Positions 10,860 through 46,869 of a stretch of DNA of 64,000 nt are shown here, piece after piece. The notes under the pieces are model-generated. The model saw nothing but the letters and a program-made list of their open reading frames with translations, ran no database searches and was not told where the DNA came from. Where the stretch lies: the NCBI GenBank assembly GCA_028554795.2, contig CM068842.1, positions 52,837,608-52,901,607 of the forward strand, given 5' to 3'. The first letter of the stretch is position 1. Each line of letters starts with the position of its first letter. Source of the DNA: Sinohyriopsis cumingii (Eukaryota > Mollusca > Bivalvia > Unionida > Unionidae). The position numbers were made by a program, and so were the translations under genes.

Positions 10860-10875
10860 AGCCCTGAAAAGGGCT
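10860..10875 (-). promoter_or_regulatory. Histone-type 3' stem-loop (E1, gene c)
   Basis: On the minus strand it reads AGCCCT-TTTC-AGGGCT, a perfect 6-bp stem with a UUUC loop, flanked by A-rich sequence 5' and ACACA 3'. A purine-rich AAAGAGA block follows. It lies downstream of the gene c relic (10963-11154) and matches the hairpin after gene c in E2 (26528-26543). Confidence 0.75.
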
Positions 10876-10962
10876 GTTTTTGTGGTCGAGGAGTTATGCC
10901 AATCTTTTATTGTCTAAAATTGCGTCCTCTGGTTCCTGCTGCTACTGCTGTCTCTGCTGTTT

Positions 10963-11154
10963 CTAAAGTGTGTACTTTTCCGTCCATTCTTCCTTTTCTT
11001 TTTTGATTGCCTCTCTGAAGAGCTCTTCTATCTGGTCTTCGGTCACTTTCAACATTCTGACGTTCTCTGTCTCTGATGGCTTCGGTATCAGGCTTTGCCT
11101 GACACGATGTAAATTCACGTAAGCTTCGTTAAGCTTTTCTAGTCTTGAGCACAT
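10963..11154 (-). pseudogene. Accessory gene c, E1 copy (truncated)
   Basis: The start MCSRLEKLNEAYVNLHRVR matches E2 gene c (26574-26933) almost residue for residue, through EEWTEKY. A stop then falls just before the glutamine run found in E2. The remaining protein would be a 63-residue charged helical fragment. The next 100 bp still show decayed Q-coding DNA and end at the histone-type hairpin. Confidence 0.7.
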
Positions 11155-11274
11155 CTTCATAGGAGGATGAGTCAACAATGGTTGGTCAGACTAGAGACTA
11201 CCAATTGCTGACGCGATAGAAAACATCCCTACACTTTTTAGAGTCTGAACGCAAGGATAGTTTGATCTGAGGGT

Positions 11275-11529
11275 TGTTGTTGTTGTTGTTGTGGGGTTTA
11301 ACGCCATTTTTCAGCACACGATAGGCTATACATGGCGGCCAGTATTAATGGTGGAGGAAGAACCCAGGAAAACCCCGGGAAGAACCACCGACCCACGAGA
11401 AGCTACTGGCAAGCTTTCTCACATACCCTCATTAGCCGAATCCTAGACTCGAACTCACGCAGACAGAGGTGAGATGGCAGTGATCCGTAACGGAGAGCGC
11501 TTTAGACCACTCGGCCACTCGGGGCCCCT
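11275..11529 (-). mobile_element. tRNA-derived SINE with Meta-type core, inserted in E1
   Basis: On the minus strand a tRNA-like head (box A near TGGCCGAGTGGTCTAAAGC, box B GAGTTCGAGTC) is followed by a core with TTCTTCCTCCACCATTAATA and CTGGCCGCCATG. The tail is AACGCC/GGCGTT-type sequence ending in a (GTT)n repeat. Near-identical duplications GATCTGAGGG (11265-11274) and GATTTGAGGG (11530-11539) flank it. A second copy in opposite orientation lies at 53586-53820. The core is typical of molluscan SINEs, which is the main clue to the host. Confidence 0.88.
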
Positions 11530-11624
11530 GATTTGAGGGTGCGGGATAGAGAGAAGTCAAAGAGTATGGTTTATCATAAAAATGGCAAACAAACGACATA
11601 TTTTTTTCTTCAAAATACAACATT

Positions 11625-11630
11625 TTTATT
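11625..11630 (-). promoter_or_regulatory. AATAAA signal after the E1 protease gene
   Basis: Reverse-strand AATAAA within a block conserved with E2 (27155-27160), where the same signal follows the protease gene. It marks the 3' end of the structural gene cluster. Confidence 0.55.
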
Positions 11631-11755
11631 CAAATAACTAACAAACAACAATTAACAATCAACCATACAGCATTTTTTTCAAACAATCAAATAAACTAAC
11701 AAACTTTATGTTCTAATAACAATGTACTTTGGACAAGGATGACAACGTTGTGAAG

Positions 11756-12280
11756 TTAAGCTAGACTTCCACTTTGGAACTCATTGGGCCATTGATTTAC
11801 ACTACGTTTCGTAGCTAGAGACAAAAGATAACCATAATGGTCACAAAACCATCGATCTATTTTGTCATCGTTTCTAGAAAAGAGACGATCAAAACTTGTC
11901 ACTAAATGTTCTAAAGAATATCCAAGACTGCGTTGATGAGGAAAATGCACACAATATTGTCCACACACCATGGAATCTGTGCCTTGTAATTTCACATTAT
12001 TGAATCGTGTCTTCTGGGCATTTCTTCTCAAAAAGTCGATGATATCGTCTTCCAAAGGTGGCAATCCATACGAAGCAAAATACTCCACACAACCTTCTTT
12101 AGGAAAGTAGACGGCAACCCAGTTGGTTCCTGGGAGATGACTTTCGTCCGCGTTGATGACATTAGCTTGATGGTCTTGAGGTTTGCGATGACGTAGTTCA
12201 TCTTTAGCATACACGACAGGATTCCTAGAAGGAGTGTACGAACTGTGGTTCAAAAGATAATAAAGTTCCCAGGTATCCAA
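11756..12280 (-). pseudogene. Adenain-like protease, E1 copy, active site lost
   Basis: A 174-codon open frame colinear with the E2 protease (27278-27838). The start codon is TTG where E2 has ATG. The catalytic His (residue 53, GTHW in E2) is Asn here (GTNW). The acidic residue at 69 (YFDSYG in E2) is Ala (YFASYG). The Gln (KLQG) and Cys (VCGQYC) positions remain. The C-terminus is truncated. The frame is open, but two of three catalytic residues and the start are gone, so this is a dead copy. Confidence 0.85.
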
Positions 12281-12330
12281 TTTTGTGAAGTTTTCACTTC
12301 TTGTTTTTCTTCACAGTTAATAATAAGTCA

Positions 12331-12765
12331 TCAATTCAATCTGACCTTTTGCTTGAAAATGTCTGACAAGTAACTGTTTCTTCGTTTCCTCTCTACACTC
12401 TGTGCCAAGAGAGCTTCGATGTGATGGATCTCTAGAGTCATGAATGGAGGAGAAGAATGATCACGCAAGTCTTCATACCACTGATGCAACACGTCTTCTT
12501 CTTCGTCCATATACTCGTCCAATTTTTCTTCTTGACTCAGCATCAGACATTCATCGTGTTGAATTTGACTGGGATGATCATTTTGACATCCATAACAATC
12601 TTTCTTGATCAATTCCGAATTCTGCCAGGTGTTTGGCAAAACAGGAGACTAAATATTGTTATTGTGCTGGCCATCTGGACTTCATCACTACGTCCTTTTC
12701 GTCTTTGTCTTGGGGTTCTGCTTCCAAGGAATCCTTCCATACCATTTCCATAGATTCTCCACTAT
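12331..12765 (-). pseudogene. CYGC-motif protein, E1 copy
   Basis: Matches the E2 gene at 27857-28342, including CYGCQNDHPSQIQHDECLML and the C-terminal SDIFKQKVR. A short in-frame deletion removes residues after LDEY, and the 5' third lies in another frame upstream of 12639. No function is known. Confidence 0.75.
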
Positions 12766-13262
12766 CCTGACAACAAGATGGCCGCTATCGCTTAACCGGC
12801 TCGAAGCAGTTGTTCCGTTTTTGTAGTGCCGTTTTCATGATATTTGTGCTTGTTGCCTGTTTTCATCTTCGTTATTGTGTTCATTATGTATTGGCTGTTA
12901 AATTCGTATGTGTTTCTTCATCTCCTTGTTTTGGAAACGAGAATAATTAGACTTTTTCCCATCTGTCTTGCTCCACTGTTTTTGAAGAAACCGCCATCAC
13001 GTGATACTCGCCAGTCAACCCGTTTGTGCTATGATGGATCCTCATTAATTGCTTTAAATGTTCACTCCTTGGCTGTCCACACTACACAGTGCTCCAGACT
13101 AAACGAACTGGGACTACATTCATCATTACCTAAATGTAAACAGAAGCGAAAGAAAAAACGTTGTTTCAAAGTTGGCCGGCGTAGAATAGGAAGAAGAATT
13201 CCTGTTATCTCCCTTATTACAGGGATAAGTACGACAACAAGTAATTCATCTTGACACTAAAG
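12766..13262 (+). mobile_element. Probable 5' fragment of a LINE inside the E1 capsid gene
   Basis: About 500 bp with no counterpart in E2 separates the CYGC relic from the capsid relic. A plus-strand frame ends in a basic stretch (KCKQKRKKKRCFKVGRR, then IPVISLI) like the region just before the endonuclease of CR1/L2-type LINEs. The equivalent of the last ~110 capsid codons is missing, so this is a replacement rather than a simple insertion. Family assignment is tentative. Confidence 0.45.
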
Positions 13263-14210
13263 TCAGGTTTGAAGGGTCTGGTACACAAGGTCTAGCCACT
13301 GCAACTGACTTCCATCTAGGACACGTCGTAATGTTGAAACTCGAATGGATTTAGACTGTGGGCTCAGTTGAAGGCTGCATTCCTCACGATACCAACAATT
13401 AATCGCTTGGGTAACTGTCCTTGGAACAGATGATCTTAGACCTTGGATCGCAGACCAGTGGCAATAATGAAAATTTTCACTTCCACGGATCGTATCGGAT
13501 AGTTGGCGGTCGTTCTGCTCAAAGTGTGACTGATGTCGTTTCTCACTTTAATTAAAACTTCCACACGTCGCACGTAGAATCTGGCTTCCTCGATATAGGT
13601 TTTGTAATCGGCAGCACCAGCCATCAAATGGAAAGTGGTACGGTTGAGATTCAGTCTCAGGTGAACATCCACGTCGTTCAGCAAATACTTCTCTTGTAAC
13701 CACATGTCCAAATGCAAACCGTCCATCAGTTCTAAACTTCGGCTTCCAGTATTTTATTTGACGTGCATCAAATCCCTTATTGGTGAAATCTTTTTCTGCC
13801 ACCTCATCAAACTGTGTCAAGTTTCCATACCACGCAAACATCCAGATGGGGGTTTTTTGGCTTCTTTTCCGTACGTCAGGACATTTTCCAAGTACGCTCG
13901 ATAAGGGTAAGTAACACTGCTGCTGCTAACCAGTTTGTTATTCAAGTACAAGTCTACTTCTCTGAACAAGGAATGCATGAAATTGTTGACGGGAGCTAGT
14001 GCTTATCGGCATCTAGATCGCTATCATCCGAATAGTTCACTTCGACTTTCAAATACAAGTAACTACTATTCAGATCAATGAATTTTCGAGAAGTCCTTTG
14101 ATTTCCAACTCGATGGGAGCTGAGGCCGTCAAAGAAGAGATGGAATGAAATTCGACCCATGGGATTCTTGCATCATCATTATAGTGGGAGGCATGGCAAA
14201 CAGATCCAGT
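13263..14210 (-). pseudogene. Major capsid protein, E1 copy, decayed
   Basis: Segments such as LHLDMWLQEKYLLNDVDVHL and YVRRVEVLIKVRNDISHTLS match E2 28670-29680, but they lie in at least three frames. The N-terminal half around 13800-14200 has deletions. The C-terminal ~110 residues are replaced by the foreign segment at 12766-13262. Confidence 0.8.
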
Positions 14211-14341
14211 TCCGTCTTGGAACAGGAGCAAGAATCTCGGTGCATCATTTTTTGTTTCTGTGACGTTTAAGTCTCGAGCAGTTATTTTTTAATAGTTTTT
14301 CTAGCTTTATCAGTGTGAAGTCTTCTGAAGGGATATCTTAG

Positions 14342-14679
14342 TCATATCTTTCTGCCTTGTCCTTCCTGTGACGTCATGGAAGCGGAAATGCCTGACTCAG
14401 TAGAGCCCAGGGTATTTATAGGAGTTTCTAGTCGGCCCAAAATGTCCTTGCCTGTTTGAAGTAAGACATTTTTGTCTGCTCTCAGGAAAGCTTCTATGGG
14501 GTTTTGTTTGTCTATGATGACATTTTGGAGAAATTGTTTACTGTGCGTCATTGCGGCATCTTTCAAGGCGTGCAATCCTCGTGTCACCATCAGTTTCATC
14601 ATGGGAGTCACCAAACGAAAGATTTATTTATTAAACCATGTCCTCGCTGTCGAAGAACTCCTCAGTACACTGGATACAT
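14342..14679 (-). pseudogene. Minor capsid/basic core protein, E1 copy
   Basis: The ATG at 14677-14679 is followed by MYPVY and then a stop. The 3' two thirds are open (14342-14614) with MVTRGLHALKDAAMTHSK and NVIIDKQNP. At the position where E2 has a stop (TAA), this copy has a glutamine codon, so the E2 lesion is recent. The basic tail seen in E2 DNA is absent. Confidence 0.7.
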
Positions 14680-14682
14680 GAC

Positions 14683-15598
14683 TTACAATTCGTTTGAGAA
14701 TCGTTTTCGAAAATGGAGTTTCACGGTGACTTTTCCTTTGGAGAATGAAATATTTTGTTCCAGATCTCCTTTTATAGCAATGTTGACAGTGTCGAAATAC
14801 GACTTACTGACGGGTAAATAGTAACGATGTACAAATTCGCGGTTAACGTGATAGATATTCCCACCTTCCTGGTCATTGATCTTGGTCGAATCCACTTTGA
14901 AAGAAACGACACGCTGTATCGGTACGGACGTGTGTCCCAACACGTTGTACTCCACCACATCGGAATACACAAAGATCAAATTGTGTCCTTCGTTTAGTTC
15001 TACCGGGAATCCAAAAGCCCTGAAAAATCCACATTACTGTTGATATTTTGGCCCAGATTCTGTGCTACCATGTGTGTATGTCCACCCAAAATTTCAAATA
15101 AACTACCACTAAACCTGTTGGACAACGTGTCGGTGTCCTGAAATTTTATCAGTAGGCGACGATCCACTTTATGATACTCAGTCTTAAACCTTATTTTGGC
15201 TCTGTTCAGGGCTTTGCTAAATGCTAACTCGAACCTGTCAGAAATGGTGTCCACCAAATATTCATCTCGAAAATAATAGCCTGATCAAATTTTCAACGTG
15301 TAGATGCTAAATGATGGATTGCAAGCTGACTTTGTGTCACCTGAAAACCCGATTTTTTTATTTCTTCTAGCAAGTGGACGTTCAGGATTTAGACCTGGAA
15401 AGTGTTTTGCTTTTCAGTGATGTTTTTGATTTGTGTAGAGTAAATCATTTGCACCAATGCCACTTCCCAATGGGTTTCAGGATCTAATTGGATGGCCTTA
15501 GGGAATTTGGCCGTGTAACAACACAAAGTGTTATTGGGAAACACCTCCATGGAACTGTCACTGGGTAAGGTTAAGTACAATTGGTTGTTATCGTTCAT
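14683..15598 (-). pseudogene. Penton-like capsid protein, E1 copy
   Basis: Three frame-shifted blocks (15598-15389, 15257-15000, 14979-14683) align in order with the intact E2 gene at 30126-31040. Shared parts include LYLTLPSDSSMEVFPNNTLC, VYSDVVEYNVLGHTSVP and GKVTVKLHFRKRFS. A gap near 15290-15390 lost part of the coding region. Confidence 0.82.
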
Positions 15599-15599
15599 A

Positions 15600-16009
15600 A
15601 TTCCAGAGTTCTGTGGCTGTCCTAGGGGTAACTGGAAGTCAGAGGATGTCTCCGTCCAAAATGATGTTATTGTTGAGGTGGTGACTGACGCTCGACACAA
15701 GATTCCCGTTGTTCCAATCGAGGAGTATTTCAGGGAAGGATTGGGAAGACGGTAACCGATGCAACTGCTCAGTAAAAAAAAGCCACAATTGTTTGTCTCC
15801 TAGCTGCAAACACAGATTGGCAATGGACGAGCCGATGACACAATACACTACAAAGATTTGGCAGAAAAAGACGGTTTGCATTTTAGCCACACGTTCTCCA
15901 CACCACACCCACATGGGTGCTATTTTAGATCTTGCAGAGACGAACTGGGTGAAGGAGTGGTCACTGCGGTGGTATCGGCAGCTGAGGCTGTGTGGAAGGG
16001 CAATATGGT
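15600..16009 (-). pseudogene. Two-helix membrane protein, E1 copy
   Basis: Retains WVWCGERVAKMQTVFFCQ and the first hydrophobic helix (FFCQIFVVYCVIG). It shifts frame after DKQLW. The start codon found in E2 (31450) is TTG here. Confidence 0.72.
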
Positions 16010-16976
16010 CACTTATTTGTATAGTCGATGACTTGCGAAGCGTCGATCCAAGAATCAAAACTGGGAGAATACCCTTTCCAACGCACTTTGACGCGTTGTA
16101 ACTCGGACAAGTAAAACGTTCCGTTTAACACTTCCCTGTTCACGTCTTCCAATTTATAGACAGCAGAATCATGGCCACGCACTCGTCCAGTAACATGAAA
16201 CAATTCGGTAGTCTAGTTAGGGAAGTAACCTTTGTCGGAAGTGCATTTGGTTTGTGAATGCGCACGTAATCTCCTACAGCCAACACTCCACCTTTCTTGG
16301 GGATAGCCACCGTCGGTGACGTACCAAACAGGCGCTCAAAAACGGTCACATCGTTGTCGGGAGTCACTTCTTGGGCGGCATGTCCAATGCTACGATGGTA
16401 AGATTGGTTGTACGTTTGGATCAAGTGGGGTAAGACGTCAATGTATTTGAGAGTGTGGTGATGCGTAAAATATTTTCACATGCGTTCTTTCAAGGTGCGT
16501 TGAAAACGTTCCACGATGCTGGCTTTGTATTCGGGATTCTCGGTGGTGAAAAAATGAATGTCACGTTTCTTTAATTTCATTTTGGAAAGCGTGGTTCAGA
16601 AATTCGGTGCCTTTTTCAGTTTGAAATCGAAGAGGGTGACGACCGCTTTGTTTCAACACCAGTTTGAGGGCTCGCACTAATTCACTGCTCGGTTTGGAAC
16701 CAGGCAAATTTAGAAAAGACACAAAACAAATATTTGTTGCCACGATTGTAGGTGGCCAATTGAAAGACATCGGCTAAATCTGCTTGTCATTGGTGATCAT
16801 TCGGATGAGACTTATGGAAATTTTCGTCGAATTGGTTTATGCACGTGGTTTGTGTATGTGGTTTTTTCTTGCAACCTTCGTTGCACTTGAGGTAAACGGA
16901 AACTTGGCAGCACGATACAATTTCTGAACTCCTCTGTATCCCGCAGGATGGGATTGCTGCCTAACACTTTCTCCAT
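16009..16976 (-). pseudogene. Chromodomain DDE integrase, E1 copy
   Basis: Fragments match the E2 integrase: start MEKVLGSNP, RLPQVQRRLQEK, HPLRFQTEKGTEFLNHAF, DVTVFERLFGTSPTVA and VRWKGYSPSFDSWIDASQVI of the chromodomain. The second catalytic Asp is Glu (QTEKGTEF against QTDKGTEF), and much of the linker before the chromodomain is deleted. It cannot encode an active enzyme. Confidence 0.85.
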
Positions 16977-16984
16977 TTTTGTTA

Positions 16985-17580: not shown

Positions 17581-17584
17581 TTTG

Positions 17585-17980: not shown

Positions 17981-18019
17981 ATTCTCATTCTTTTCCTCAG
18001 GCATTTTGTTATACTGGAA

Positions 18020-18843: not shown

Positions 18844-18899
18844 GTTGACTTTGTGTGAGACAGATCCAAAGTGTCAGAGGTTTTCATAGATTTTTTTCG

Positions 18900-38070: not shown

Positions 38071-38228
38071 CTTGTTCGCTCGGTCTTGGTAGTCCCAATG
38101 AACTATCGATCTTGCCTAGGGTTCCTTTTTATATACAGACCAATACCAACGTGACCGTACGGTAAGGTGAAATGATTGGGAAGTCGCACTCGCTTCTGGT
38201 ACACGATTTGATAGACTTTTTCCAAGGG

Positions 38229-41200
38229 TCAACTGACGATGTGGTGAGTGGGTAAACGTACAATCTTGTTCGGTTGATAGGTGGTCACTTTAAAGTTTCC
38301 ATCCTCTCCCGATTGCAAGGCTTCTTTCAATACCCCAAAGTTGACCACTCTACTGGTACGATAATTCAGAGTCAGTCCTTTCACTTTGCACGTCGTGTGC
38401 ACTTCTCCTTGTTTGTCCCGGTATTCGTAGCCGTAATTTTTGGGACCGCCACTGACGAAACTTAGAATCTTGTCGTCGGGATGCTCGTCTGTCCAGGCTC
38501 CTAAACGGTCTCCTTCGATGTTAGGGTGATGTTGAATCGGGTGATGGATGTAAATGCAACTGTCCGTGTCAAAGTACAGGACGCGTTCTTCTAACAGTTC
38601 TAAAGCTTCGTACAATTTTAAGCGAGCATGGGCTGTCACGTAAGCCGCAATGATGACATTTCCAAAAGGGTCGTCTTGTACAAAGTCCAGATCTTCTTCG
38701 TAATTGACCAAGATTAAATTCTCTCGAACGACGTCCACGTGTTTCATGTATTTGGTTTTGTCGTGAATCATCTGGAAGTAGCGGGAAGGTTCTGTCAAAT
38801 ATTCCGTCTTGGGTAAACACGGCCGTTGTGCCATTTTACCCCACAAGCAATTTAACATCACTTTGGCAAACGATCGCCTGCCTTCGTTTTTCTCAATGTG
38901 GTCTAAAGTGATGCCTTCTTGTTCGTAATATTTCTCTTTGAATTTTATTTGGTCTTCGGGAGTGTGACACCAGGAAGGATAGCCGCTGGCTTCTTGCTTC
39001 AGTTTCAAAAAGGCATCCACGTAGTCGGCGAAAATGCCTTTCTGAGTAGGGTCACCCTTGTGGTACTGTTGTGTCTTAGGAAAGTGGCAAATTTCGTATA
39101 CTTCTAACAGTTGGTATCCCATGTCCAGAGCTTTGAACAATTCTACGCTGACCCAGGTTCCCGTCAAGGCCCGTTCTTCCTGGGTGTGCTGACAAGGCTG
39201 GTCTTGGTTGCACGTTTCGGCACAAGTACGGCACAAGGAACACATCAGTTTGCCTTGACAATGGTGAGGTAAGACGGGATGGTATAGGTTCGTGGGAGGC
39301 AAAACTTTACACTTGATCAAGCCTTCGTATTGTCGAATGTTTTTCAGGTCGATGTGTTCCGTGAACAATTGCGGGTGCCCTACAGGAAAGCGACAATATT
39401 TGCACACGTAGGGATACAGCGAACACACGTCCAAGTATTTGATTTCTTCTCCTTTCTCTTCGTCGGCTTGGTACAGCAAACAGGTGGCATTGGTCCTTCC
39501 TCCGTACAAACTATCCCTCGGGTTCAGCGGGTCCATGAACTGGTAACTTTCCACGGCACGTTTAAACTCGGGATCGGTTTTCATACGGTGATCGTACTCG
39601 TGTTCCCACATTTCCACCACTTGGTATCCTTGCTGTTCTAACTTTAGGCGTCGCTGACAAGTGTCCTGGTACAAGTTTTCCATGGTTCGTTGCAAAAACT
39701 GATTTTTAGTGCCACGGTCAGGGTAACAAACAGGACATCCGTGAAATAAGCAACCGTTAAACTCGTACACGATCTTGGGGTTTTCTAAGTCCCAGCCATC
39801 GACCGAATACGTTCCGATGGTCTTTGCGCCCCCTCCGTTGCGAGCATGCTGAATCCACTTGTCTTCCTTGTCGCACAAGTAATGTAACCAACGTAGGGCT
39901 TTGACCGAGTACTGACGTTTGACAAAGTGGGTCGTTTGAGGACTGATGACAGCCACGGTCTTTTCAGGCATGAATCGTTGTCGATACACTAAGGAACACG
40001 CTTTGGCAATGGTGCAAGCTTCTTTCAAAGGATCGACCCCTCCGTGTTCCATGAACAGTTCTCGAAATTTTCCACAGCAACGCCGTAAAATGTCCACGTC
40101 GGAACGACAATACTTTAGCATTTCTTCCTGAAAGTCGAAAGGGTCCGAGGCGTGAATCTGGTACCAAGCGTAGAAAGCTTCTCGTTGTTCGGTACGCATG
40201 TTGTCGGGGTCGTAATAGTGAGCCTCTGGTAAATGGGGTAGAACGGCATGTTGATTGGCTTCCGTATTGAAAAAGTGTGGAAAGTACCCTTTAGCCATTT
40301 CTGTCATTCCAAACGTTTTAGGCATTCGACTCAAAGGCATGGCCAAATAGCTCATCGAATCTTTAAACTGTACTTGTCCCACTTGCATGAAAATGATTTT
40401 GGCTCCGTTCAAAGTCACTTTAGGACGTTCGGTGCCTTGTTCCGTATAGTACCTCAAAAGAAACTGTCCATCGTATCCGGAGAAATTGTGAGCCATCACC
40501 GTGGCATGACGATGACAATCTCCGTAACGTTCGATGTCCTCTTGGCTCCACGTCTTGTCGACGGGGTCTAAGACCCATTGGGCAAAATCGGCTAACGTGT
40601 TTGGTCCCCGAAAGATTTTTTCACGCCCTCCGGGAATCTTGCTACAGTGAGGGCAATGACTGAAGATAGGTTCTTGAATGCACTTCTCGCACGCTCGATG
40701 AGCCACGCAGAAATTAGGAATGTGAATGCCAGTCTCTTGCATGCATTCGAAATCGAAAAAGATGAAATTGCCTTTCTTCCTGTGACCGTCCTCTTTCTCT
40801 GGTGGGGGTTGGTATTTTTGCACGTAACATTGGTGTTCCAAGTCCACGATGTGGTGACAAATGTGACATTTTTTCTTTCCTCGACATACGTGTGCCTTGG
40901 TACTATTGGTACGTATGACTTGTTCACACGTAGGGCACAATCTCAGGAGTTGACAAGCGCATTTTTTCTGTGAACCTTGCGTCTTCAAATGTTGTTGGTA
41001 ACAGGTAGGGCTGACAAACGTGCGCAGACAAGTGGAACAAGGCACTGGTTCTTCGCTCAGACAGGGTGAAGAGGCCAAACATCCTGTGCATTTCGATCCA
41101 CAATGCTTGTGTTGCTCTCGATTGTTATAACCATGGTCACATTTCTCACAGTAATAACCGTATACTAGGAATCCGGTGATACTGGTAATGGTATCGAAAT

Positions 41201-42164
41201 GGTCATCGTGATGATAAACATGAATGTATTTTCCGTCCTTAAAATCTTGGCCTCGAAACAATAGAGGCCCGCGCATTTCTTGAGGGTGCACTTTCAAGGT
41301 GTATCGTGGAGCTAGGACATCTTGCAATTTTTGCATCTCAGGAATGCCACAGGGTGTGTCTTTGGACAGTCCGGCTTGTTGTAACAGGAGTTCTGCTTCG
41401 TTTCGTTGTTTGGCTCGGTCGGAACGTTGAATAGTGTCCCAGGTTCTTTTCCATTCTACCGTGTCGTTCTTGTTGGCATAGGTTCGTCCCACCACGATGG
41501 CACGGGCTAAACACATCTGGTCATGAGGGTTGTTAATTCGGACGAGACTCGTTTTGGTGTTGCGAAGGTCGTCCACCAATAACATCTTTTTGCGTCCTGT
41601 CCCTTGAGGAGGAGAGACGTGGGTCATGTCCAGTGTGGCTTTACCATCGGTGATGTCAAACTGATCATTAGATTGTTGTACGTGTTGAATCTTGTCCATG
41701 ACTTTGGAAGCAGTCAATTCTGCAGGGGTGCTAAACTCGATCCAAACAGGGGATTTCAAACCGTCGTGTTGTATGGAAAGTCTCAAGCGATCGTCTTCTT
41801 TGGGTTGACATTGTCGCTTGAGTGCAGTGAGCAAAGAATCCCACACCTCGGTGATGAACACTTCTGCTTTCTCTAACGGCACTTCAGCCTTGAAATCTTT
41901 AAACTTCACCGTGTATTTGTAAGCCGTGGTTCTAAATTTTCTAGAGGAGCGCTTTTCCGTCTCTCGAATGGAATAGTACTTTTCAGGGTTGACAAAGGGT
42001 GGTGGACTTGGTTTAGAGGGTTCGGATTCTGGTTCACTCATGTCCTCTTCAAAATCACTGGCATGAATTTGTGCCAAGATTTCAGCCCTGGTACGAGGCG
42101 ATAGATCACGTTTCTGCCTCTTACTTTCTTCTTGTTTCTTCTCGAATGAATGGGATCGTTTCAT
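38229..42164 (-). CDS. polB: Protein-primed family B DNA polymerase
   Basis: 1311 residues, full length. N-terminal disordered and basic region; Cys/His-rich zinc-binding segment at about 335-450 (CEKCDHGYNNREQHKHC, CPTCEQVI, CHICHHIV); exonuclease motifs I (FIFFDFECMQE, ~465), II (HNFSGYDGQF, ~557) and III (YCRSDVDIL, ~684); polymerase motifs A (LDVCSLYPYV, ~911), B (KVMLNCLWGKMAQR, ~1100) and C (YFDTDSCIYI, ~1197). This is the Maverick replicative enzyme. The frame is open throughout with all catalytic residues visible. It diverges from the CCHC gene across an 86-bp promoter. No separate terminal-protein gene is evident; the N-terminal region may supply it. Confidence 0.96.
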   Translation of the reverse strand: MKRSHSFEKKQEESKRQKRDLSPRTRAEILAQIHASDFEEDMSEPESEPSKPSPPPFVNPEKYYSIRETEKRSSRKFRTTAYKYTVKFKDFKAEVPLEKAEVFITEVWDSLLTALKRQCQPKEDDRLRLSIQHDGLKSPVWIEFSTPAELTASKVMDKIQHVQQSNDQFDITDGKATLDMTHVSPPQGTGRKKMLLVDDLRNTKTSLVRINNPHDQMCLARAIVVGRTYANKNDTVEWKRTWDTIQRSDRAKQRNEAELLLQQAGLSKDTPCGIPEMQKLQDVLAPRYTLKVHPQEMRGPLLFRGQDFKDGKYIHVYHHDDHFDTITSITGFLVYGYYCEKCDHGYNNREQHKHCGSKCTGCLASSPCLSEEPVPCSTCLRTFVSPTCYQQHLKTQGSQKKCACQLLRLCPTCEQVIRTNSTKAHVCRGKKKCHICHHIVDLEHQCYVQKYQPPPEKEDGHRKKGNFIFFDFECMQETGIHIPNFCVAHRACEKCIQEPIFSHCPHCSKIPGGREKIFRGPNTLADFAQWVLDPVDKTWSQEDIERYGDCHRHATVMAHNFSGYDGQFLLRYYTEQGTERPKVTLNGAKIIFMQVGQVQFKDSMSYLAMPLSRMPKTFGMTEMAKGYFPHFFNTEANQHAVLPHLPEAHYYDPDNMRTEQREAFYAWYQIHASDPFDFQEEMLKYCRSDVDILRRCCGKFRELFMEHGGVDPLKEACTIAKACSLVYRQRFMPEKTVAVISPQTTHFVKRQYSVKALRWLHYLCDKEDKWIQHARNGGGAKTIGTYSVDGWDLENPKIVYEFNGCLFHGCPVCYPDRGTKNQFLQRTMENLYQDTCQRRLKLEQQGYQVVEMWEHEYDHRMKTDPEFKRAVESYQFMDPLNPRDSLYGGRTNATCLLYQADEEKGEEIKYLDVCSLYPYVCKYCRFPVGHPQLFTEHIDLKNIRQYEGLIKCKVLPPTNLYHPVLPHHCQGKLMCSLCRTCAETCNQDQPCQHTQEERALTGTWVSVELFKALDMGYQLLEVYEICHFPKTQQYHKGDPTQKGIFADYVDAFLKLKQEASGYPSWCHTPEDQIKFKEKYYEQEGITLDHIEKNEGRRSFAKVMLNCLWGKMAQRPCLPKTEYLTEPSRYFQMIHDKTKYMKHVDVVRENLILVNYEEDLDFVQDDPFGNVIIAAYVTAHARLKLYEALELLEERVLYFDTDSCIYIHHPIQHHPNIEGDRLGAWTDEHPDDKILSFVSGGPKNYGYEYRDKQGEVHTTCKVKGLTLNYRTSRVVNFGVLKEALQSGEDGNFKVTTYQPNKIVRLPTHHIVS

Positions 42165-42266
42165 CTTGAAAGCAAAAAGTCAAATGACTCAAGTTCAAAC
42201 ACCATAAACTACTTTATAGTCATAGCAGACCAGCGTATATAAAAGGGTGTGTGTCTTGTCCTTTCA
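42165..42266. promoter_or_regulatory. Divergent promoter between polB and the CCHC gene
   Basis: A minus-strand TATA box (CTATAAAG, 42212-42219) lies about 48 bp before the polB ATG. A plus-strand TATA box (TATATAAAA, 42236-42244) faces the other way. In E1 the plus-strand box (TATATATAAAGG, near 44959-44970) is conserved although the polB start is deleted. The plus transcript should begin near 42270. Confidence 0.65.
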
Positions 42267-42625
42267 CTATTCATTTCACTCTCAAGCCGAGCACAACGAA
42301 GAAAGGGCATTGGTCTTCAGAGTGTCCAGACCGTCAAAAAAGGACAAAAACAGGGACTAAAAAAGACAAAAGTCAAGATACCTGTTATTATTGTAAAGAA
42401 AAAGGACATTGGTCTCCAGATTGCCCAAAAAAGAAACAAGAGGAGTCAGAAGAAAAGAGGAATTCTTCAGAAGAAGAAGAGACGGATTCTTCAGAGGAAG
42501 AGAGGGATTCTTCTGAGGAAAAAAGACAATTCTATTTACAAGAGGCAAAGAAACAGGAGAAGAAAAGAAGAAGGGAAGAAAATGAGGAAAAGACGGTGAA
42601 GAAATTTAAAAAACAGAGAGAGTAA
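42267..42625 (+). pseudogene. CCHC zinc-knuckle protein, 5' deleted
   Basis: One complete knuckle is present (CYYCKEKGHWSPDC, C-x2-C-x4-H-x4-C) and the second half of another (GHWSSECPDRQ). An acidic Ser/Glu repeat (SSEEEERDSSEEK) and a basic tail follow. No ATG exists in this frame. E1 has about 130 more bp at this point, including ATG and the first half of the first knuckle, so E2 has a 5' deletion. Knuckles of this kind bind single-stranded nucleic acid. It ends with AATAAA at 42704-42709, not a hairpin. Confidence 0.62.
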
Positions 42626-42703
42626 ACAAGGAGAAAGAAGAAGTCAATGAACTTTTTATTAAAGTGTTGTGCTGTGAATTGGATTGTAAAAAATGGAGAA
42701 AAG

Positions 42704-42709
42704 AATAAA
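42704..42709 (+). promoter_or_regulatory. AATAAA signal after the CCHC gene
   Basis: AATAAA about 80 bp beyond the stop at 42625. The convergent gene on the other strand ends in a histone-type hairpin at 42873-42888, so the two 3' modes meet here. Confidence 0.55.
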
Positions 42710-42872
42710 TGAATGATAAAAGGTAAGTGTCTTTGAGTTGTGATTTTAAAATAAGAAGCTACACTCACGCACTCATACACAGACACGTACTATAAGGGTA
42801 AAATGGGTGGGTTTTTTTTTTTTTTGAGTTATTGGCAAATTGAAATTGTATTTCTTTTCGAGAAATGTGGGT

Positions 42873-42888
42873 GGCCCTGAAAAGGGCC
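42873..42888 (-). promoter_or_regulatory. Histone-type 3' stem-loop of the coiled-coil gene
   Basis: Minus strand AATAAAA-GGCCCT-TTTC-AGGGCC-ACCCA, then CATTTCTCGAAAAGAAATAC. This copy fits the metazoan histone consensus best: the ACCCA 3' flank and the purine-rich downstream element are both exact in type. It is 23 nt after the stop at 42911. The orthologous E1 hairpin (45690-45705) has T-A in place of the third C-G pair. Confidence 0.88.
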
Positions 42889-42910
42889 TTTTATTGGTGT
42901 AGGGGTGAGT

Positions 42911-43486
42911 TTAAGCAATCAACTTTAACTGCCTTATGCCTTTGCCACGGCCAAGGCCTACTTCTGGACTGCGTAATGTTGATGATGATTGGGTTGAAAT
43001 CACTAAGGGTGGTACGGTAGGCTTAGTCACAGGGTTGACGTGTTTAGCTCGGGAAGGTCGTATTCTCTTCGGTCGTGATAAAGAAGTCTGATACATTTGT
43101 TTCAGACTTCTTAACTCCGCTAAAATGTCCAACAGTACCGTGACCGTTTGATTTTCACCCTCTTGTTTCTTTGCTGCTACTTCTTCTTGCTGTTGTTGCT
43201 GTTGTTTTTTTCTTACCTCTTCTTCTTGTTGCTGTTGCTGTAGGAGTAAAGCCTGTTCCGCTTCCTTTTGTCGTTGTATAAATTTCTCCAATTCTTCTTT
43301 CTGTCTCTGTCTAAAATTCTCCACTTGCGGTAATGAAGAAGGTAACGAAGGTTCCGGAACAAATTCTTGCGAGGAGAGAAAATCCACAAAATCCCAATTC
43401 ACCTCTTCTGAAAGTAAGTCCGAGTTCCCTTGGGCGGTCTCCCCTGCTGGTGCACCCCAATGGATCGTTTTCTGAGTTTCCGTCAT
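42911..43486 (-). CDS. Q-rich coiled-coil protein with basic tail
   Basis: 191 residues from ATG at 43484-43486 (MTETQKTIHWGAPAG). An acidic N-terminus is followed by a long coiled coil with glutamine runs (LLLQQQQQEEEVRKKQQQQQ), then a Leu-rich helix (TVLLDILAELRSLKQMYQTS) and a basic disordered tail (SRPKRIRPSRAK; ending GLGRGKGIRQLKLIA). No family recognised. It is transcribed divergently from the small basic gene and has a histone-type 3' end. The E1 copy (45738-46371) keeps both ends but is frame-shifted in the middle. Confidence 0.68.
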   Translation of the reverse strand: MTETQKTIHWGAPAGETAQGNSDLLSEEVNWDFVDFLSSQEFVPEPSLPSSLPQVENFRQRQKEELEKFIQRQKEAEQALLLQQQQQEEEVRKKQQQQQQEEVAAKKQEGENQTVTVLLDILAELRSLKQMYQTSLSRPKRIRPSRAKHVNPVTKPTVPPLVISTQSSSTLRSPEVGLGRGKGIRQLKLIA

Positions 43487-43705
43487 GTTGAATCACTGTC
43501 GCATAGATTGACTGCACACAAGCGCTAGCGAATCTATATAGACTACGTGACGTCACAGACTGCACTCTTCGGATTGGATGCGGGCTGACTGAATTCTGTA
43601 ACGCGTGTTCGGATTGGTGAATGAACTCAATCCGTTTCAATCCTTCCTGTCCCTATAAATAAGCGCCGTTCACTGCATTGATTCACCTATTCTCGGAGCC
43701 TCAAC
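43487..43705. promoter_or_regulatory. Compact bidirectional promoter with CRE, CCAAT and two TATA boxes
   Basis: A palindromic CRE TGACGTCA (43548-43555), two CGGATTGG blocks (reverse CCAAT; 43571-43577 and 43611-43617), a minus-strand TATATAG box (43534-43541) and a plus-strand TATAAATAA box (43654-43662). The E1 region 46372-46595 keeps the CRE, one CGGATTGG and both TATA boxes. Conservation between two old copies argues for function. The arrangement resembles that of divergent histone gene pairs. Confidence 0.75.
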
Positions 43706-43936
43706 ATGTGGACAGACGTTGAATCTTCAACCCTTGTGTCAACAATGATGTTCAGGACGGACATGCTCATGTATGTCCGATCCAAGTGGACCGTTGTCCA
43801 CAGGACCAACAGCAGCCTGTGGATAAGAAGAGTCTATATAGAGAGACAAGGTTGCCTCAAGAGGACTCTGATGTATGGCCCTGCTGTAAGACGAAGTTTG
43901 AGGACAAGAAGATGTCGCAAATGCCCTTTATGTTAA
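43706..43936 (+). CDS. Small basic protein of unknown family (E2)
   Basis: 76 residues, MWTDVESSTLVSTMMFRTDM then an Arg-rich second half (WIRRVYIERQGCLKRTLMYG, RRSLRTRRCRKCPLC). The E1 copy at 46596-46841 is open and about 60 percent identical by eye, so the frame is real and under constraint. Net charge is strongly positive, as for a nucleic-acid binding protein; I recognise no fold. It has its own TATA box 44 bp upstream, and the stop is 22 nt before a histone-type hairpin inside the right TIR. Confidence 0.68.
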   Translation: MWTDVESSTLVSTMMFRTDMLMYVRSKWTVVHRTNSSLWIRRVYIERQGCLKRTLMYGPAVRRSLRTRRCRKCPLC

Positions 43937-43952
43937 GGGCATATTAACATAA

Positions 43953-44217
43953 ACCAAAGGCCCTTTTCAGGGCCAGCCATATTTCTCGAAAAGAGATAGC
44001 CTTTCCATTGCCTACCCCTTTTTTAAAAAAAAAAAATCCCATGTTCAATTCCCCTTGTCCGTAGAGTGTCCCACGATTTATTCCCATGTTAAATTCCCCT
44101 TGTCCGTAGAGTGTCCCACGATTTTTCGCCATGTTAAATTTCCATTTCCATTAGAGTGTCCCAAGGGTGTTTTTAATGCTAATTCCCATTGTCCGTAGGG
44201 TATCCCCATTCACTACT
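43953..44217 (-). repeat. Right terminal inverted repeat of E2
   Basis: Inverted copy of 24446-24711, ending CCCCATTCACTACT. It contains the tandem units, a poly-A/T tract and, at its inner edge, a hairpin serving the basic gene. The few differences from the left TIR include a short cluster at 44146-44153. Confidence 0.95.
43959..43974 (+). promoter_or_regulatory. Histone-type 3' stem-loop in the right TIR
   Basis: AACCAAA-GGCCCT-TTTC-AGGGCC-AGCCA, then TATTTCTCGAAAAGAGATAG. The 5' flank CCAAA is the histone type. It is on the plus strand, in the same direction as the gene that ends at 43936. Confidence 0.86.
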
Positions 44218-44223
44218 TACGTT
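44218..44223. repeat. Right target-site duplication of E2 (TACGTT)
   Basis: Exact copy of 24440-24445, directly after the right TIR end. The E1 polB sequence resumes at once (codons for CLARAIVVGRT run up to it). Confidence 0.95.
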
Positions 44224-44890
44224 CGTCCCACCACGATGGCACGGGCTAAACACATCTGGTCTTGAGAGTTGTTAATTTGGACAAGGCTACGCTTGATGCT
44301 ACGAAGGTTGTCCACCAATAACACCTTTTTGCGTCCGGTCCCTTGAGGAAGAGATACGTCGGTCATGTACATTGTGGCTTTTCCTTCGGTGATGTGAAAC
44401 TTGTCATTGGATTGTTGCATGTGTTGAATCTTGTCGATGATTTTGGAAGGTGTTAATTCTGATGGGCTTCTAAACTCGATCCAAACGGGGGACTTTAAAC
44501 TGTCATGATGAATGAAAGTCTCGAGCGATCGTCTTCTTTGGCTTGACATTTTCGCTTCAGTGTGGTTATCAAAGAAGCCCATACCTCGGTGATGAACCCC
44601 TCTGCCTTCTCCAATGGTAGTTCGGCCTTGACATATTTAATCTTCACAGTGTACGTGTAAGCCGTGGCTCTAAATTTTCTAGAGGAGCGCTTTTCCGTCT
44701 TTAGAATGTGGAAGTACTTTTCAGGAGTTAATTTTAGTTAACTTTCGTTAAGTGTAGACTCTCTGGGTCTGGATTATGTCTCACTCATGTATCTTCAACA
44801 TCACTGGCATGAATTTGTGCCAAGACTTCAGCTACTGTACGAGGCGACAAATCACGTTTCTGCCTCTTACTTTCTTCTCCTTTCTCCGTG
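44224..44890 (-). pseudogene. DNA polymerase B, E1 copy, 5' part
   Basis: Matches residues ~1-240 of E2 PolB: HDSLKSPVWIEFRSPSELT, DKIQHMQQSNDKFHITEGKA and DQMCLARAIVVGRT. It shifts frame near 44520 and loses the start codon by a small deletion near 44880. It continues at 24439 on the other side of E2. Confidence 0.88.
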
Positions 44891-44989
44891 ATATCTTGAC
44901 TGCAAAAGTCAAATGGCTACATTCTAAACGCAATGGGTCTATCCATGTTAGACCAGTGTATATATAAAGGGTTCCTGTCTTACCTTTCA

Positions 44990-45440
44990 GCATTCATTCA
45001 CTCTCAAGCCAATAAGAACGATGGAAGAGCCCACACAGATCGAACTTCTGATAGAGCGTTGCGAGGTGTCATAAGAAAGTTTTCTTCAGCCAATCCGACG
45101 GACCAACCCCCCTTCTTTCGAGATATAAGTCAATATACTTGGTATATCTGTAAGAATAAAAGGCATTGGACTTCAGAATGTCCAGACCGTCAAAAAAGAA
45201 AATAGGTGTCAGAAGAGACAAAAGTCAAGATACCTGTTATCATTGTCAAGAAAAAGAACATTGGTCATCGGAATGCCATAAGAAACAACAAGAGAAAGAG
45301 GAAGAAGAGGTAACCTCCCCAAAGGAAGAACTCAGACACGTGCAGAAAGAGAAATAAGAACAGAAAAGAAGACGAAGAGAATGTGAGAACAAAGAAAACG
45401 GAAAAAACTGTGAAAGTGAAGAAATTTAAAAAACGGAGAA
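44990..45440 (+). pseudogene. CCHC zinc-knuckle protein, E1 copy
   Basis: An ATG at 45020 (MEEPTQIELLIERCEV) is followed by a stop. The other frames carry the first knuckle (with Trp in place of the first Cys: WYICKNKRHWTSEC) and the second (CYHCQEKEHWSSEC). This copy shows what E2 lost at the 5' end. TATA box near 44960. Confidence 0.65.
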
Positions 45441-45689
45441 AGTGAACAAAGACACAGAGCATGTCTATGAAAATTTTGAAGTGTTGTGTTATGAATTCAA
45501 TTGTAAAATTTGTACCAGAATAGACCAGGCATAAAACATATGTATCTCTTGGTTTTGATTTGTTTGAATATAGACCTACACTCACGCACTCACTCACTCA
45601 CTCACACACGTACATCATGGGTATAAAAGGGTTTTGAGTTTAATTGATTTTGGCGATTGAAATACTATCACTTTTAGAGAAAAGTGGGT

Positions 45690-45705
45690 GGTCCTGAAAA
45701 GGACC
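45690..45705 (-). promoter_or_regulatory. Histone-type 3' stem-loop (E1, coiled-coil gene)
   Basis: Minus strand CAAC-GGTCCT-TTTC-AGGACC-ACCCAC, then TTTTCTCTAAAAGTG. Perfect stem. Compared with the orthologous E2 hairpin, the third pair changed from C-G to T-A on both sides, a compensatory change. Confidence 0.82.
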
Positions 45706-45737
45706 GTTGGGTACTTGTTTGTTTAAAAAAAAAAAAC

Positions 45738-46371
45738 TTAGAAACGGAACGTTATGACATTTAACTGCCATAAACCTTTGCCACGGCCACGGCCTACTTC
45801 TGGACTGGCTCCTGTCGATGATAACTTGGTAGAAATCACTAGGGGTGGTATCGCAGGCGTTGTAACAGGGCTGGGTTGTTTGGCTGGGGAAGAACTTTTT
45901 CGCTTGGGTCGTAATAAAGAGGTCTGATACATTTTTTCCGACTCCTTGACTCTGCTAAAATGTCTAAGAGTACCGGTACGGTTTGGCTTTCAATATTCTC
46001 CTTCTCTCTTAGACCTTGTTTCTCCTCTGCTACTTCTCCCTGTCATTTCCTTCTTGCCCTTTCTTCTTCTCGCTGTTGCTGTTGAAAAAAACCCACAACT
46101 TGTTCTTCTTCTTTCTGCTGTTGTAAAAATTTCTCAAATTCTTCTTTATGTCTCTGTTTAAAATCCTCGACGTGTGGTAAAGAAGAAGGTGGCGAAGGTA
46201 CTGGTACCGGAACAAATTCTTGAGAAGAAGAAAGAAAATCGACTAAATCCCAATTAAAATCGACCTCTTCTGGAAGTAGGTATGTGTTAACTTTGGTACC
46301 GCTGCTATGCCATCGATTCTCGTCCCCACAGCTGGTGCGCCCCAATTCATCGTCGTCTTAGTCTCCGTCAT
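45738..46371 (-). pseudogene. Q-rich coiled-coil protein, E1 copy
   Basis: The ATG at 46369-46371 is kept. The middle part EEVDFNWDLVDFLSS and FKQRHKEEFEKFLQQQKEEE matches E2, as does the tail (MYQTSLLRPKRK, SPEVGRGRGKG). Frames change near 46290 and 46050. Ends 33 nt before a hairpin. Confidence 0.7.
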
Positions 46372-46595
46372 GTTTGAAAACTGTCGCATGGATTGACTGC
46401 GCACAGACGCTAGCGCATCTATATAGGGAATGTGACGTCACAGGTAGCTCTCTTCGGATTGGAAGACAGACTCCACAATGTGACTGAATTTTGTAACGCA
46501 TGTTAGGATTCGTGAATAAACTCAATCCCTTTCGATCCGCTCCTCCACTATAAATATATGTTCACTGCATTCCCTCCACATGTTCTCGTCACAAG
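46372..46595. promoter_or_regulatory. Bidirectional promoter, E1 copy
   Basis: CRE TGACGTCA at 46433-46440, CGGATTGG at 46455-46462, minus-strand TATATAG at 46419-46426 and plus-strand TATAAATATA at 46549-46558. Spacing matches E2 within a few bases. Confidence 0.7.
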
Positions 46596-46841
46596 ATGTG
46601 GACAAACGTAGAATCATCTACTCTCGTATCGAAAATTCTGTTCCGTACGGACTTACCCATATATGTGAAATCGTCATGGACAATTATCCGGATCACCGAT
46701 AAGAACGTTAGGAAAAGAAGAATTTATGTGGAGAGACAAGGCTGTATGAAGCGAGTTCTCATCTACGGCACAGAAGTCAGAAAATGTTTGAGGAACAAAA
46801 GAAGACATGCGTTGCCCTCTATGTTACCGGAATTATGTTAA
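46596..46841 (+). CDS. Small basic protein of unknown family (E1)
   Basis: 81 residues, MWTNVESSTLVSKILFRTDL, with an Arg/Lys-rich second half (KNVRKRRIYVERQGCMKRVL). It is the only gene of E1 with an undamaged start and a frame matching E2 almost to its end. The last ~10 residues differ. The stop is 13 nt before a slightly decayed hairpin. Persistence of this frame in an otherwise ruined element is notable, though a short gene may escape damage by chance. Confidence 0.6.
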   Translation: MWTNVESSTLVSKILFRTDLPIYVKSSWTIIRITDKNVRKRRIYVERQGCMKRVLIYGTEVRKCLRNKRRHALPSMLPELC

Positions 46842-46853
46842 CATAAACCCAAA

Positions 46854-46869
46854 GGTCCTTTTCAGAGCC
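46854..46869 (+). promoter_or_regulatory. Histone-type 3' stem-loop (E1, basic gene)
   Basis: AACCCAAA-GGTCCT-TTTC-AGAGCC-ACTCT, then TATGCATCGAAAAGATTTAC. The flank and loop are canonical. The stem has one C-A mismatch and one G-T pair, so it is decaying. Located at the inner edge of the E1 right TIR. Confidence 0.72.

Follow-up and report, generated by a model that had tools for sequence, protein, structure and literature searches.

The window analysed here, a 64,000-nt stretch of the genome of the bivalve Sinohyriopsis cumingii, contains eight short hairpins that follow genes of mobile elements, and the question is what these hairpins do. A preliminary description had placed them behind the non-core flank genes of two Maverick elements and had likened them to the 3' ends of replication-dependent histone mRNAs. 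All eight are present at the positions and on the strands given there. The analysis suggests that Mavericks borrow the host histone-mRNA machinery for several of their own genes.

Two nested Maverick elements

Both elements are Mavericks, as had been proposed, and element B is nested in element A (Table 1). The features that define Mavericks (Polintons), a viral-type DNA polymerase B and a retroviral-like integrase, are present, and element B also has the TIRs, the 6-bp target duplication and a length within the 15-20 kb range. The TIR arms of B (24441-24644 and 44019-44222) are 96% complementary, its ends read AGTAGTGAATGGGG...CCCCATTCACTACT, and the hexamer TACGTT is duplicated at 24440-24445 and 44218-44223. 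B interrupts the polB gene of element A, which resumes at about 44218. The inverted arms of A lie at 8225-8369/47053-47197 (81%) and 8445-8556/46867-46978 (85%), its end sequences having been compared by eye, and the direct repeats D7, D11 and D16 tie A to the polB gene of B.

The PolB, the rve-chromo integrase, the A32-type ATPase, the F54H12.2-like protein, the TIRs and the 6-bp duplication are shared with Maverick/Polinton elements and adintoviruses. The F54H12.2-type protein, which we take to have a capsid (penton) role, has homologues whose named animal sources, among the best 120 of 1009, are Mercenaria, Crassostrea, Ostrea and Saccostrea. No capsid match was found among the ORFs scanned with Pfam.

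Table 1. Elements, genes and hairpin-bearing 3' ends in the window
Feature	Position	Strand	Evidence and remarks
Element B, Maverick, 19.8 kb, inserted in A	24446..44217		TIRs and target duplication
Element A, older Maverick into which B inserted	8225..47240		outer boundaries approximate; erosion at the left end
Maverick DNA polymerase B, 1311 aa, core	38229..42164	-	PF03175, E 5.7e-43
Maverick integrase, rve + chromo, core	31456..32568	-	PF00665, PF00385
Packaging ATPase, Pox_A32, core	34871..35524	-	PF04665, E 1.1e-7
F54H12.2-type protein, core	28670..29680	-	1009 homologues
Adenovirus-type protease candidate	27278..27838	-	PF00770, E 0.0084, below Pfam cut-off; AATAAA at +117
g108, flank gene, 108 aa	25740..26066	-	ORF; only a sub-cut-off Pfam match
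g119, flank gene, 119 aa, Q-rich	26574..26933	-	ORF; no Pfam match at E 0.1
g191, flank gene, 191 aa, Q-rich	42911..43486	-	no Pfam match at E 0.01
g76, outward flank gene, 76 aa, pI 11.1	43706..43936	+	ORF
Element A copy of g76, 81 aa	46596..46841	+	stop 12 nt ahead of stem
B left outward gene, 3' end	24667..24711, stem 24691-24706	-	RF00032 32.2 bits; within TIR
g108 3' end, element B	25672..25717, stem 25697-25712	-	RF00032 31.0 bits; stop-to-stem 27 nt
g119 3' end, element B	26503..26548, stem 26528-26543	-	RF00032 31.0 bits; stop-to-stem 30 nt
g191 3' end, element B	42849..42893, stem 42873-42888	-	RF00032 40.8 bits (above gathering score); stop-to-stem 22 nt
g76 3' end, element B, right TIR	43954..43999, stem 43959-43974	+	RF00032 35.6 bits (above gathering score); stop-to-stem 22 nt
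Decayed g119 copy 3' end, element A	10834..10880, hairpin 10860	-	RF00032 31.2 bits; aligns with 26528
Decayed g191 copy 3' end, element A	45665..45710, hairpin 45690	-	RF00032 39.9 bits (above gathering score)
Decayed g76 copy 3' end, element A	46849..46893, hairpin 46854	+	RF00032 20.9 bits, E 0.36; one C.A mismatch

Hairpins at the ends of the flank genes

All eight sites are matched by the Rfam model of the histone 3' stem-loop, RF00032, the check that the preliminary description had proposed. Three pass the curated gathering score of 34 and four more have E <= 6.4e-5, a value that holds for seven of the eight, and the lack of significant matches that had been named as counter-evidence did not materialise. 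The lowest E in a scan against all Rfam families is 1.4e-8. The loop is UUUC at every site, and the stem consists of six standard base pairs in all hairpins except 46854, a decayed copy that belongs to the older element A. The purine core is altered at all three element A sites.

Every hairpin reads in the sense of the preceding gene. Where an ORF of at least 45 aa ends nearby, which is the case at six of the eight sites, the stem begins 12-32 nt past the stop (32 and 12 nt in element A); the preliminary description gave 13-33 nt. At 10860 and 24691 the gene copy is broken in the window, and the distances to the end of the nearest such ORF are 87 and 158 nt, respectively; an open, 182-aa homologue of the gene broken at 24691 (g182) is found in locus L010. 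The core genes, which form a block between the flank genes, are devoid of a histone-type signal. No CTTTTCAG occurs within 400 nt past the stop of the polB, integrase, ATPase and F54H12.2-type genes.

In a loose scan, which asked for six pairs with at least six G/C among the stem bases, U as the first and third loop nucleotide, and a run of seven purines within 29 nt, the window gave eight sites, six of them among the eight hairpins (45690 and 46854 were missed). The same scan of 60 approximate dinucleotide shuffles gave a mean of 1.28 sites per window and a maximum of 4, and the UUUUCA core occurred four times in all 60 shuffles together. A covariance model built from the eight sites and from L003, a distant Maverick contig from another source, assigned E <= 7.2e-10 to all eight, followed by a best remaining site at 0.063, in an unfiltered 64-kb run of which only this gap is informative.

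No Pfam histone match was obtained for g191, g108, g119 or g76, and no histone peptide motif lies upstream in any of the 75 genomic RF00032 loci described below; the flank genes are thus not histone genes. For g76, g191 and g108 no match to other flank proteins better than E 2 was found. Weak mutual matches exist among g119, g182 and a MASN-type protein (E 0.027-0.5), so that not all flank genes need be unrelated. The median dN/dS is 0.129 for g76 (239 pairs, 25 ORFs), 0.222 for g182 and 0.369 for g191.

Comparison with the histone genes of the host

A passage of PMC5011920 calls the stem-loop and the downstream element hallmarks of replication-dependent histones. A host histone unit (L089) contains H4, H2B, H2A, H1 and H3, each with an RF00032 match of 35.0-39.4 bits, and the model built from the Maverick sites and L003 recovers the same five ends with 37.7-58.8 bits. 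The claim of a histone-type layout is supported by this comparison, as the host genes show the same hairpin, purine core and spacing. The likeness comprises the 6-bp stem, the UUUC loop, the AAA 5' flank, the ACC 3' flank, the one-sided downstream purine element with its spacing and the short gap past the stop. The purine core CTCTAGAAAAGA is common to host H2B and to g108 and g119, and in the host genes the core lies 14-15 nt past the stem (the H4 value of 14 was read by eye).

The Maverick ends differ from histone ends in that the genes upstream are viral flank genes, that A-U is frequent as the first stem pair (AGCCCU...AGGGCU) and that cleavage is predicted here from sequence. The stop-to-stem gap is 27-38 nt in the host histone genes, and the Maverick gaps are mostly shorter. 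In the region 20-45 nt past the stem, which lies outside RF00032, the five host genes are jointly nearer to the Maverick profile than any of 5000 letter shuffles. Only H2A, H4 and H3 show this further block clearly in register; H2B and H1 score better at another shift, and the score is positive for H2A alone. The host U7 snRNA was not found: RF00066 gave no match, and none of 25 candidate places from two pattern searches, judged by eye and some by folding, was U7-like.

Recurrence in the genome and evolution of the signal

A genome scan with RF00032 yielded 589,472 candidates and 75 scored matches, the sequences of all of which were examined. Homologues of the flank genes g76, g191 or g182 lie directly 5' of 64 matches; in ten others a g108 homologue lies 0.8-1.3 kb upstream, and one is unlabelled. 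The Maverick-trained model detects a second, partner hairpin about 1 kb away in 71 of the 75 loci (67 by a separate scan), and none was seen within the stretch examined in the remaining four. The 75 index hairpins are conserved by choice, having been picked by their RF00032 score; the partners are free of this selection, yet they have recent ancestry in common. The motif AAAAG starts 14 nt past the stem in 74 of the 75 loci, and among 67 partner hairpins it does so in 63, with two at 15 nt and two in which it was not found. Of 25 g76 ORFs, 24 have a gap of 18-24 nt between stop and stem; of 22 g191 ORFs, 21 have one of 21-27 nt.

Stem changes are in part compensated. In g191 the third stem pair differs on both strands between the two elements, C-G having become U-A, and a double change from G-C to A-U is seen at the g108/g119 ends. 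In the hairpin alignment 97.9% of the cells are paired. The covariation is modest: the score was reached by 12 of 500 shuffles, two doubly changed pairs by 55 of 500 and the number of pair types by 296 of 500.

The distant contig L003 has a 35.8-bit RF00032 match after a C2H2 zinc-finger ORF. No match was found in five of the six contigs carrying a relative of the capsid-type protein (L001, L002, L004, L005 and L006), of which four are only 3.6-8.4 kb and L001 is 20.9 kb long.

Proposed function and alternatives

The signal, its place after stops in gene sense, its match to host histone ends, the compensated changes over diverged copies and the recurrence in a distant contig are observed, and the hairpins are very probably histone-type pre-mRNA 3' processing signals used by the Maverick flank genes. 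In the most likely pathway, the flank-gene mRNAs would be matured by SLBP and U7 snRNP of the host and would carry no poly(A). In the nucleus, the stem-loop would be bound by SLBP and the GAAAAGA element, some 14 nt further on, would base-pair with the U7 snRNP. Cleavage about 5 nt past the stem would yield a non-polyadenylated mRNA with a short UTR, which SLBP would then carry to export and translation. Flank-gene expression would as a consequence be tied to S phase and host DNA replication, on which the element may itself depend.

Some histone genes use both SLBP/U7 cleavage and downstream polyadenylation. The same may apply here, with the former in dividing cells and the latter otherwise, a reading that overlaps with the one preferred and that we consider possible but doubtful. 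AATAAA is found at most 150 nt past the stem in 14 of the 75 loci and within 30 nt ahead of it in ten, and among the five genes of the host unit H4 also has one within 150 nt; both end signals are thus possibly used. The downstream rate (19%), however, barely exceeds the 12.3% found for random 150-nt pieces.

This lack of a clear AATAAA excess also speaks against the proposal that the hairpins are functional DNA or a generic RNA structure, such as a part of the terminal repeat, a replication or packaging signal, or a hairpin directing polyadenylation as in mimivirus. Two of the five hairpins of B do lie inside the TIRs, and a hairpin rule for 3' ends is reported for giant viruses. The other three lie deeper than 1 kb within the element, however, and the gene sense, the short distance past the stop at six of eight sites, and the flanks, UUUC loop and one-sided purine element matching host histone ends make such a role unlikely. 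The mimivirus hairpin is reported to mark an mRNA 3' end in a DNA virus too, but it signals polyadenylation. The mimivirus rule is not known to involve a U7-type element.

The module might instead be a passive relic of a host histone 3' end that an ancestral Maverick captured, copied along and no longer uses. The host likeness beyond the known signal is what capture predicts, and the best 150 genomic copies of g191 are stop-free and 98-100% identical, so that likeness alone is no proof of use. A relic is nevertheless very improbable, since some stem changes are compensated, the module is found after different genes, partner hairpins persist in 71 of 75 loci although the median dS of the g76 ORFs is 0.996, and the remote contig L003 also has the signal. 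Capture followed by use is possible and compatible with the processing function favoured above, of which it is no rival. Chance hairpins, although short inverted repeats are frequent in a sequence of 64 kb, are ruled out for practical purposes by the Rfam E-values, the matches at all eight sites, the shuffle control and the genome-wide recurrence.

Relation to earlier reports and significance

The preliminary description knew of no such signals in Mavericks, which holds in part. A 2025 paper (PMC12220804) counts six RF00032 matches above the gathering score in a scan of 8,300 genomes of Polinton-like viruses and virophages, and none in 1,107 cryptophyte elements. There they are one list item, for which the main text names neither position nor gene, and neither a purine element nor a mechanism; in the present case there are several per element, placed after flank genes and matched to host histones. 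No fuller report of histone-type ends in Mavericks or Polinton-like viruses was found in the literature, and a search of the available portions of Maverick and virus papers for histone and stem-loop gave no such mRNA signal. The adomavirus 'Histoid', a virus-encoded histone-like protein, is likewise a histone-related feature, found in animal DNA viruses that have genes in common with adintoviruses. There the resemblance is in the protein, whereas in the Mavericks it is in the mRNA signal, and their flank proteins gave no recognisable histone match.

A broader proposal, about as likely as not, is that an animal Maverick lineage in more than one host has made the pathway of replication-dependent histone mRNAs its own expression programme. 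The non-core flank genes would be poly(A)-free and S-phase-timed, their 3' ends (hairpin, purine element and downstream block) would be tuned to each host, and the core genes would have ordinary ends. The hairpin is a cheap marker with which flank genes and the ends of elements can be located. The Maverick life cycle becomes testable, since the flank genes would escape RNA-seq with poly(A) selection. If the processing function is true, it would constitute a new route by which a DNA virus or transposon links its expression to the host cell cycle and escapes poly(A)-based control.

Histone-type hairpins of the two Maverick elements

The two Mavericks proposed for the window are both present: element B is inserted within polB of the older element A, as is seen from its TIRs (96%) and from a TACGTT duplication on either side. 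Element B encodes PolB, an rve-chromo integrase, an A32-type ATPase and a BIR-domain protein, and has a weak match to the adenovirus protease. The eight hairpins that the preliminary description had assigned to the histone type are all real. RF00032, the Rfam model of the histone 3' stem-loop, matches every one of them, three above the gathering score, seven at E <= 6.4e-5 and all eight at E <= 0.36. R1, a covariance model trained on the eight window sites and one outside site (L003, a Maverick contig), was run unfiltered over the 64 kb and found the eight at E <= 7.2e-10, the next-best site having 0.063. A loose hairpin scan gave 8 hairpins in the window against 1.28 per window in the shuffled control, and the UUUUCA core occurs 6 times, against 4 in total across 60 shuffles. 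The observation is confirmed, and its interpretation as histone-type 3' ends is supported by the sequences.

All eight hairpins stand in gene sense behind non-core flank genes (named by their length in amino acids), as had been described. Two of those of element B are contained in its TIRs, so that the outermost genes at both ends point outwards and terminate with the signal. Within 400 nt of the stops of 15 core ORFs examined, CTTTTCAG is absent, and an AATAAA lies 117 nt beyond the last gene of the core block. The third virus-like element of the window has no match to RF00032 or R1 at E 0.05.

Features of the window and of one related contig
Feature	Position	Strand	Location and remarks
Element B	24446-44217
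Hairpins of element B			behind g182 (broken here), g108, g119, g191, g76; gene sense
Hairpins of element A			behind decayed g119, g191, g76 copies; gene sense
199-nt inverted repeat	11332-11530 / 53583-53781		93% complementary; joins A to sequence on the right-hand side of the nested pair
Two adjacent ORFs	36318-37304		element B; duplicated in tandem (86% across 209 nt); matched once in element A
BIR (inhibitor of apoptosis) domain protein	37333-38070		element B
Open frame with CCHC zinc-knuckle motifs	42304-42625	+	between polB and g191; no ATG seen; AWTAAA at +32 and +78, without hairpin
Stretch resembling the CCHC frame (by eye)	~45160-45450		element A
Third virus-like element	55679-64000
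Pox_A32 ATPase	55679-56353	-	third element
rve integrase	56890-57834	+	third element
SF1-type helicase, 1153 aa	57827-61288	-	third element
HNH/NUMOD1 endonuclease	61665-62192	+	third element
TATA-binding-protein gene	L003:1189-1695		Maverick contig; PF00352, E 1.2e-27

Copies in the host genome

The RF00032 search of the 2.9-Gb genome scored 75 of 589,472 candidates, all of which were fetched with 1.5 kb on each side; the loci are a sample, not a ranking, and yield no copy number. The host histone genes are absent from them despite scores of 35.0-39.4 bits, and no histone motif was found at the 75 loci. The nearest flank gene is g76 at 29 loci, g191 at 23, g182 at 12 and g108 at 10, with none at one. 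The 64 matches to g76, g191 and g182 end shortly before the hairpin; those to g108 lie 0.8-1.3 kb upstream. A small ORF rich in Lys and Glu directly precedes the hairpin at 7 of the 10 loci labelled g108 and at the unlabelled one (grouped by eye), and is complete with a MASN start in four (L011, L026, L061, L079).

The index hairpins, those scored by RF00032, are conserved through the choice of the sample, and the partner hairpins about 1 kb away were therefore examined. R1 finds a partner at 71 of the 75 loci (none in L033, L038, L061 and L074), and a separate scan, in which candidates below the score cut were dropped, at 67. Among these 67 best stems, GGCCCU/AGGGCC (38) and AGCCCU/AGGGCU (14) differ by a first pair altered on both sides; one mismatch occurs in 9. 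Since R1 was trained on close relatives, its high scores mirror homology, and the informative part of the partner data is the presence of the hairpins and their paired changes. In a nine-row alignment (eight rows distinct) 97.9% of the cells pair and two pairs are changed on both sides; the covariation score was equalled by 12 of 500 shuffles, which is supportive, not strong, evidence.

The median dN/dS is 0.129 for g76 (25 ORFs, 239 pairs), 0.222 for g182 (8 ORFs, 18 pairs) and 0.369 for g191 (22 ORFs, 117 pairs), ratios that are rough because truncated ORFs were included (9 of the 22 g191 ORFs have 56-121 aa). Pairs with fewer than 40 codons, with dS <= 0.05 or saturated were dropped, as were 11 of the 75 loci with no ORF of at least 55 aa ending within 60 nt. 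The best 150 copies of g191 are open and 98-100% identical, which indicates a recent spread of this family. For g76, g191 and g108, comparison with the other flank proteins yielded nothing better than E 2; among g119, g182 and the MASN type there is weak mutual similarity (E 0.027-0.5).

Comparison with the host histone genes

The histone genes of the host are arranged in tandem, with a unit of about 8.3 kb as judged from the spacing of H4 matches. In the unit fetched (L089), which comprises H4, H2B, H2A, H1 and H3, RF00032 matches at 35.0-39.4 bits behind every gene. R1, whose training included no histone genes, recovers all five hairpins at 37.7-58.8 bits. The purine core of the host is CTAGAAAAGA in H4, H2B, H1 and H3 and CCCGAAAAGG in H2A. 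Downstream of the window hairpins, the core is CTAGAAAAGA or CTCGAAAAGA at five of the eight, all in element B; at the three of element A it is altered. GAAAAG is the prevailing core at the 75 genomic loci, with CTCAAAAAGAGA in 10 and loss in one (L008). The spacing from stem to core, 14-15 nt, is common to the host histone genes and the Mavericks, whereas the gap from stop to stem is 27-38 nt in the host histones and mostly exceeds that of the Mavericks.

Most Maverick copies have a further block like TTTCAATTGCC on the 3' side of the purine element, about 30 nt (30-39 nt) past the stem and beyond the reach of RF00032. Its profile drew on 63 different 3' flanks of Mavericks and covered positions 20-45 past the stem, the better of two registers being scored; L008, the one index locus of 75 without a purine core, was excluded. 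The summed score of the five host genes is -60.7 bits against a shuffled-letter mean of -169.4, and was reached by none of 5000 shuffles; singly, it was reached by 3 of 5000 for H2A, 30 for H4, 36 for H2B, 457 for H1 and 463 for H3. Only H2A scores positively (0.7 bits; CAATTTTGCC, in the Maverick register); the block of H4 is a weaker form of it, and H2B and H1 score higher in another register. For H2A and H4 at least, host and Maverick ends may thus be alike in more than the established signal, a likeness that is a lead only, because it was sought after it had been noticed. It would fit either the capture of a histone gene's 3' end or an additional element, for example a longer U7 pairing.

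RF00066 gave no match to U7 in the host genome (65 of 801,960 candidates scored), and the RF00066 controls were likewise silent. A first U7 pattern, with a vertebrate-type Sm site, had 76 matches against 82 for its reversed control; a second had 206 against 215. Among the matches listed, 25 places were fetched (17 of the 76 and 8 of the 206) and none was accepted as U7. In the C5 cluster, whose repeats are nearly identical, no 3' hairpin was visible by eye, and the TCTTTTCTAAATTTGTCT sites come from one dispersed, coding-like repeat. A word resembling U7, around TCTTTTC...AATTTGTCT, occurs in a dispersed coding-like repeat family of the host genome (L090, L091, L100-L105) and is apparently coincidental.

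Relatives and earlier reports

The matches listed for the F54H12.2-like, capsid-type protein of element B include homologues in Mercenaria, Crassostrea, Ostrea and Saccostrea; Mavericks make up 1.69-1.93% in a table of Mercenaria assemblies in PMC8905726. An alignment search found relatives of this protein on six contigs in bacterial MAGs. One of them, L003 (8.9 kb; its capsid-type protein has 31% identity to that of element B), has a TBP-like gene, an integrase and PolB split over two ORFs. Close to its end, behind an 89-aa C2H2 zinc-finger ORF, lies an RF00032 match of 35.8 bits with the loop UAUC and a AAAAAAGAGA element. The other five contigs have no hairpin match; four are short, and L001 lacks one despite its 20.9 kb, so that histone-type ends may not be universal. 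The IMG/VR viral collection yielded no locus, either to two hairpin patterns or to four queries with proteins or alignments.

The claim that no such signals had been reported stands in part. RF00032 matches in relatives are published: PMC12220804, in its section 16, lists six histone 3' UTR stem-loops, none in cryptophyte elements and without further comment there, from an Rfam scan at gathering scores of 8,300 PLV and virophage genomes. Passages of PMC11071296, PMC8097293 and PMC11071308 do not mention the histone stem-loop. No literature joining it with Mavericks was found, and because subscription journals were mostly outside the search, the novelty of the fuller system is provisional.

Implications for 3' end formation

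The simplest reading is that SLBP and U7 snRNP of the host type would process the 3' ends of the flank-gene mRNAs, which would then carry no poly(A). It is possible that the flank genes use both histone-type and poly(A) ends. A mimivirus 'hairpin rule' for transcript 3' ends is cited among the references of PMC3058096 and PMC5799277, and histone 3' ends of clam and cnidarian are treated in passages of PMC6210712 and PMC5011920. The purine element, the spacing and the flanks of the Maverick sites match those of the host histones, which argues for probable recognition by the host machinery, as against a generic hairpin. By SLBP/U7 processing a Maverick may gain coupling to S phase, escape from controls that act through poly(A), or compactness of the 3' ends close to its termini.
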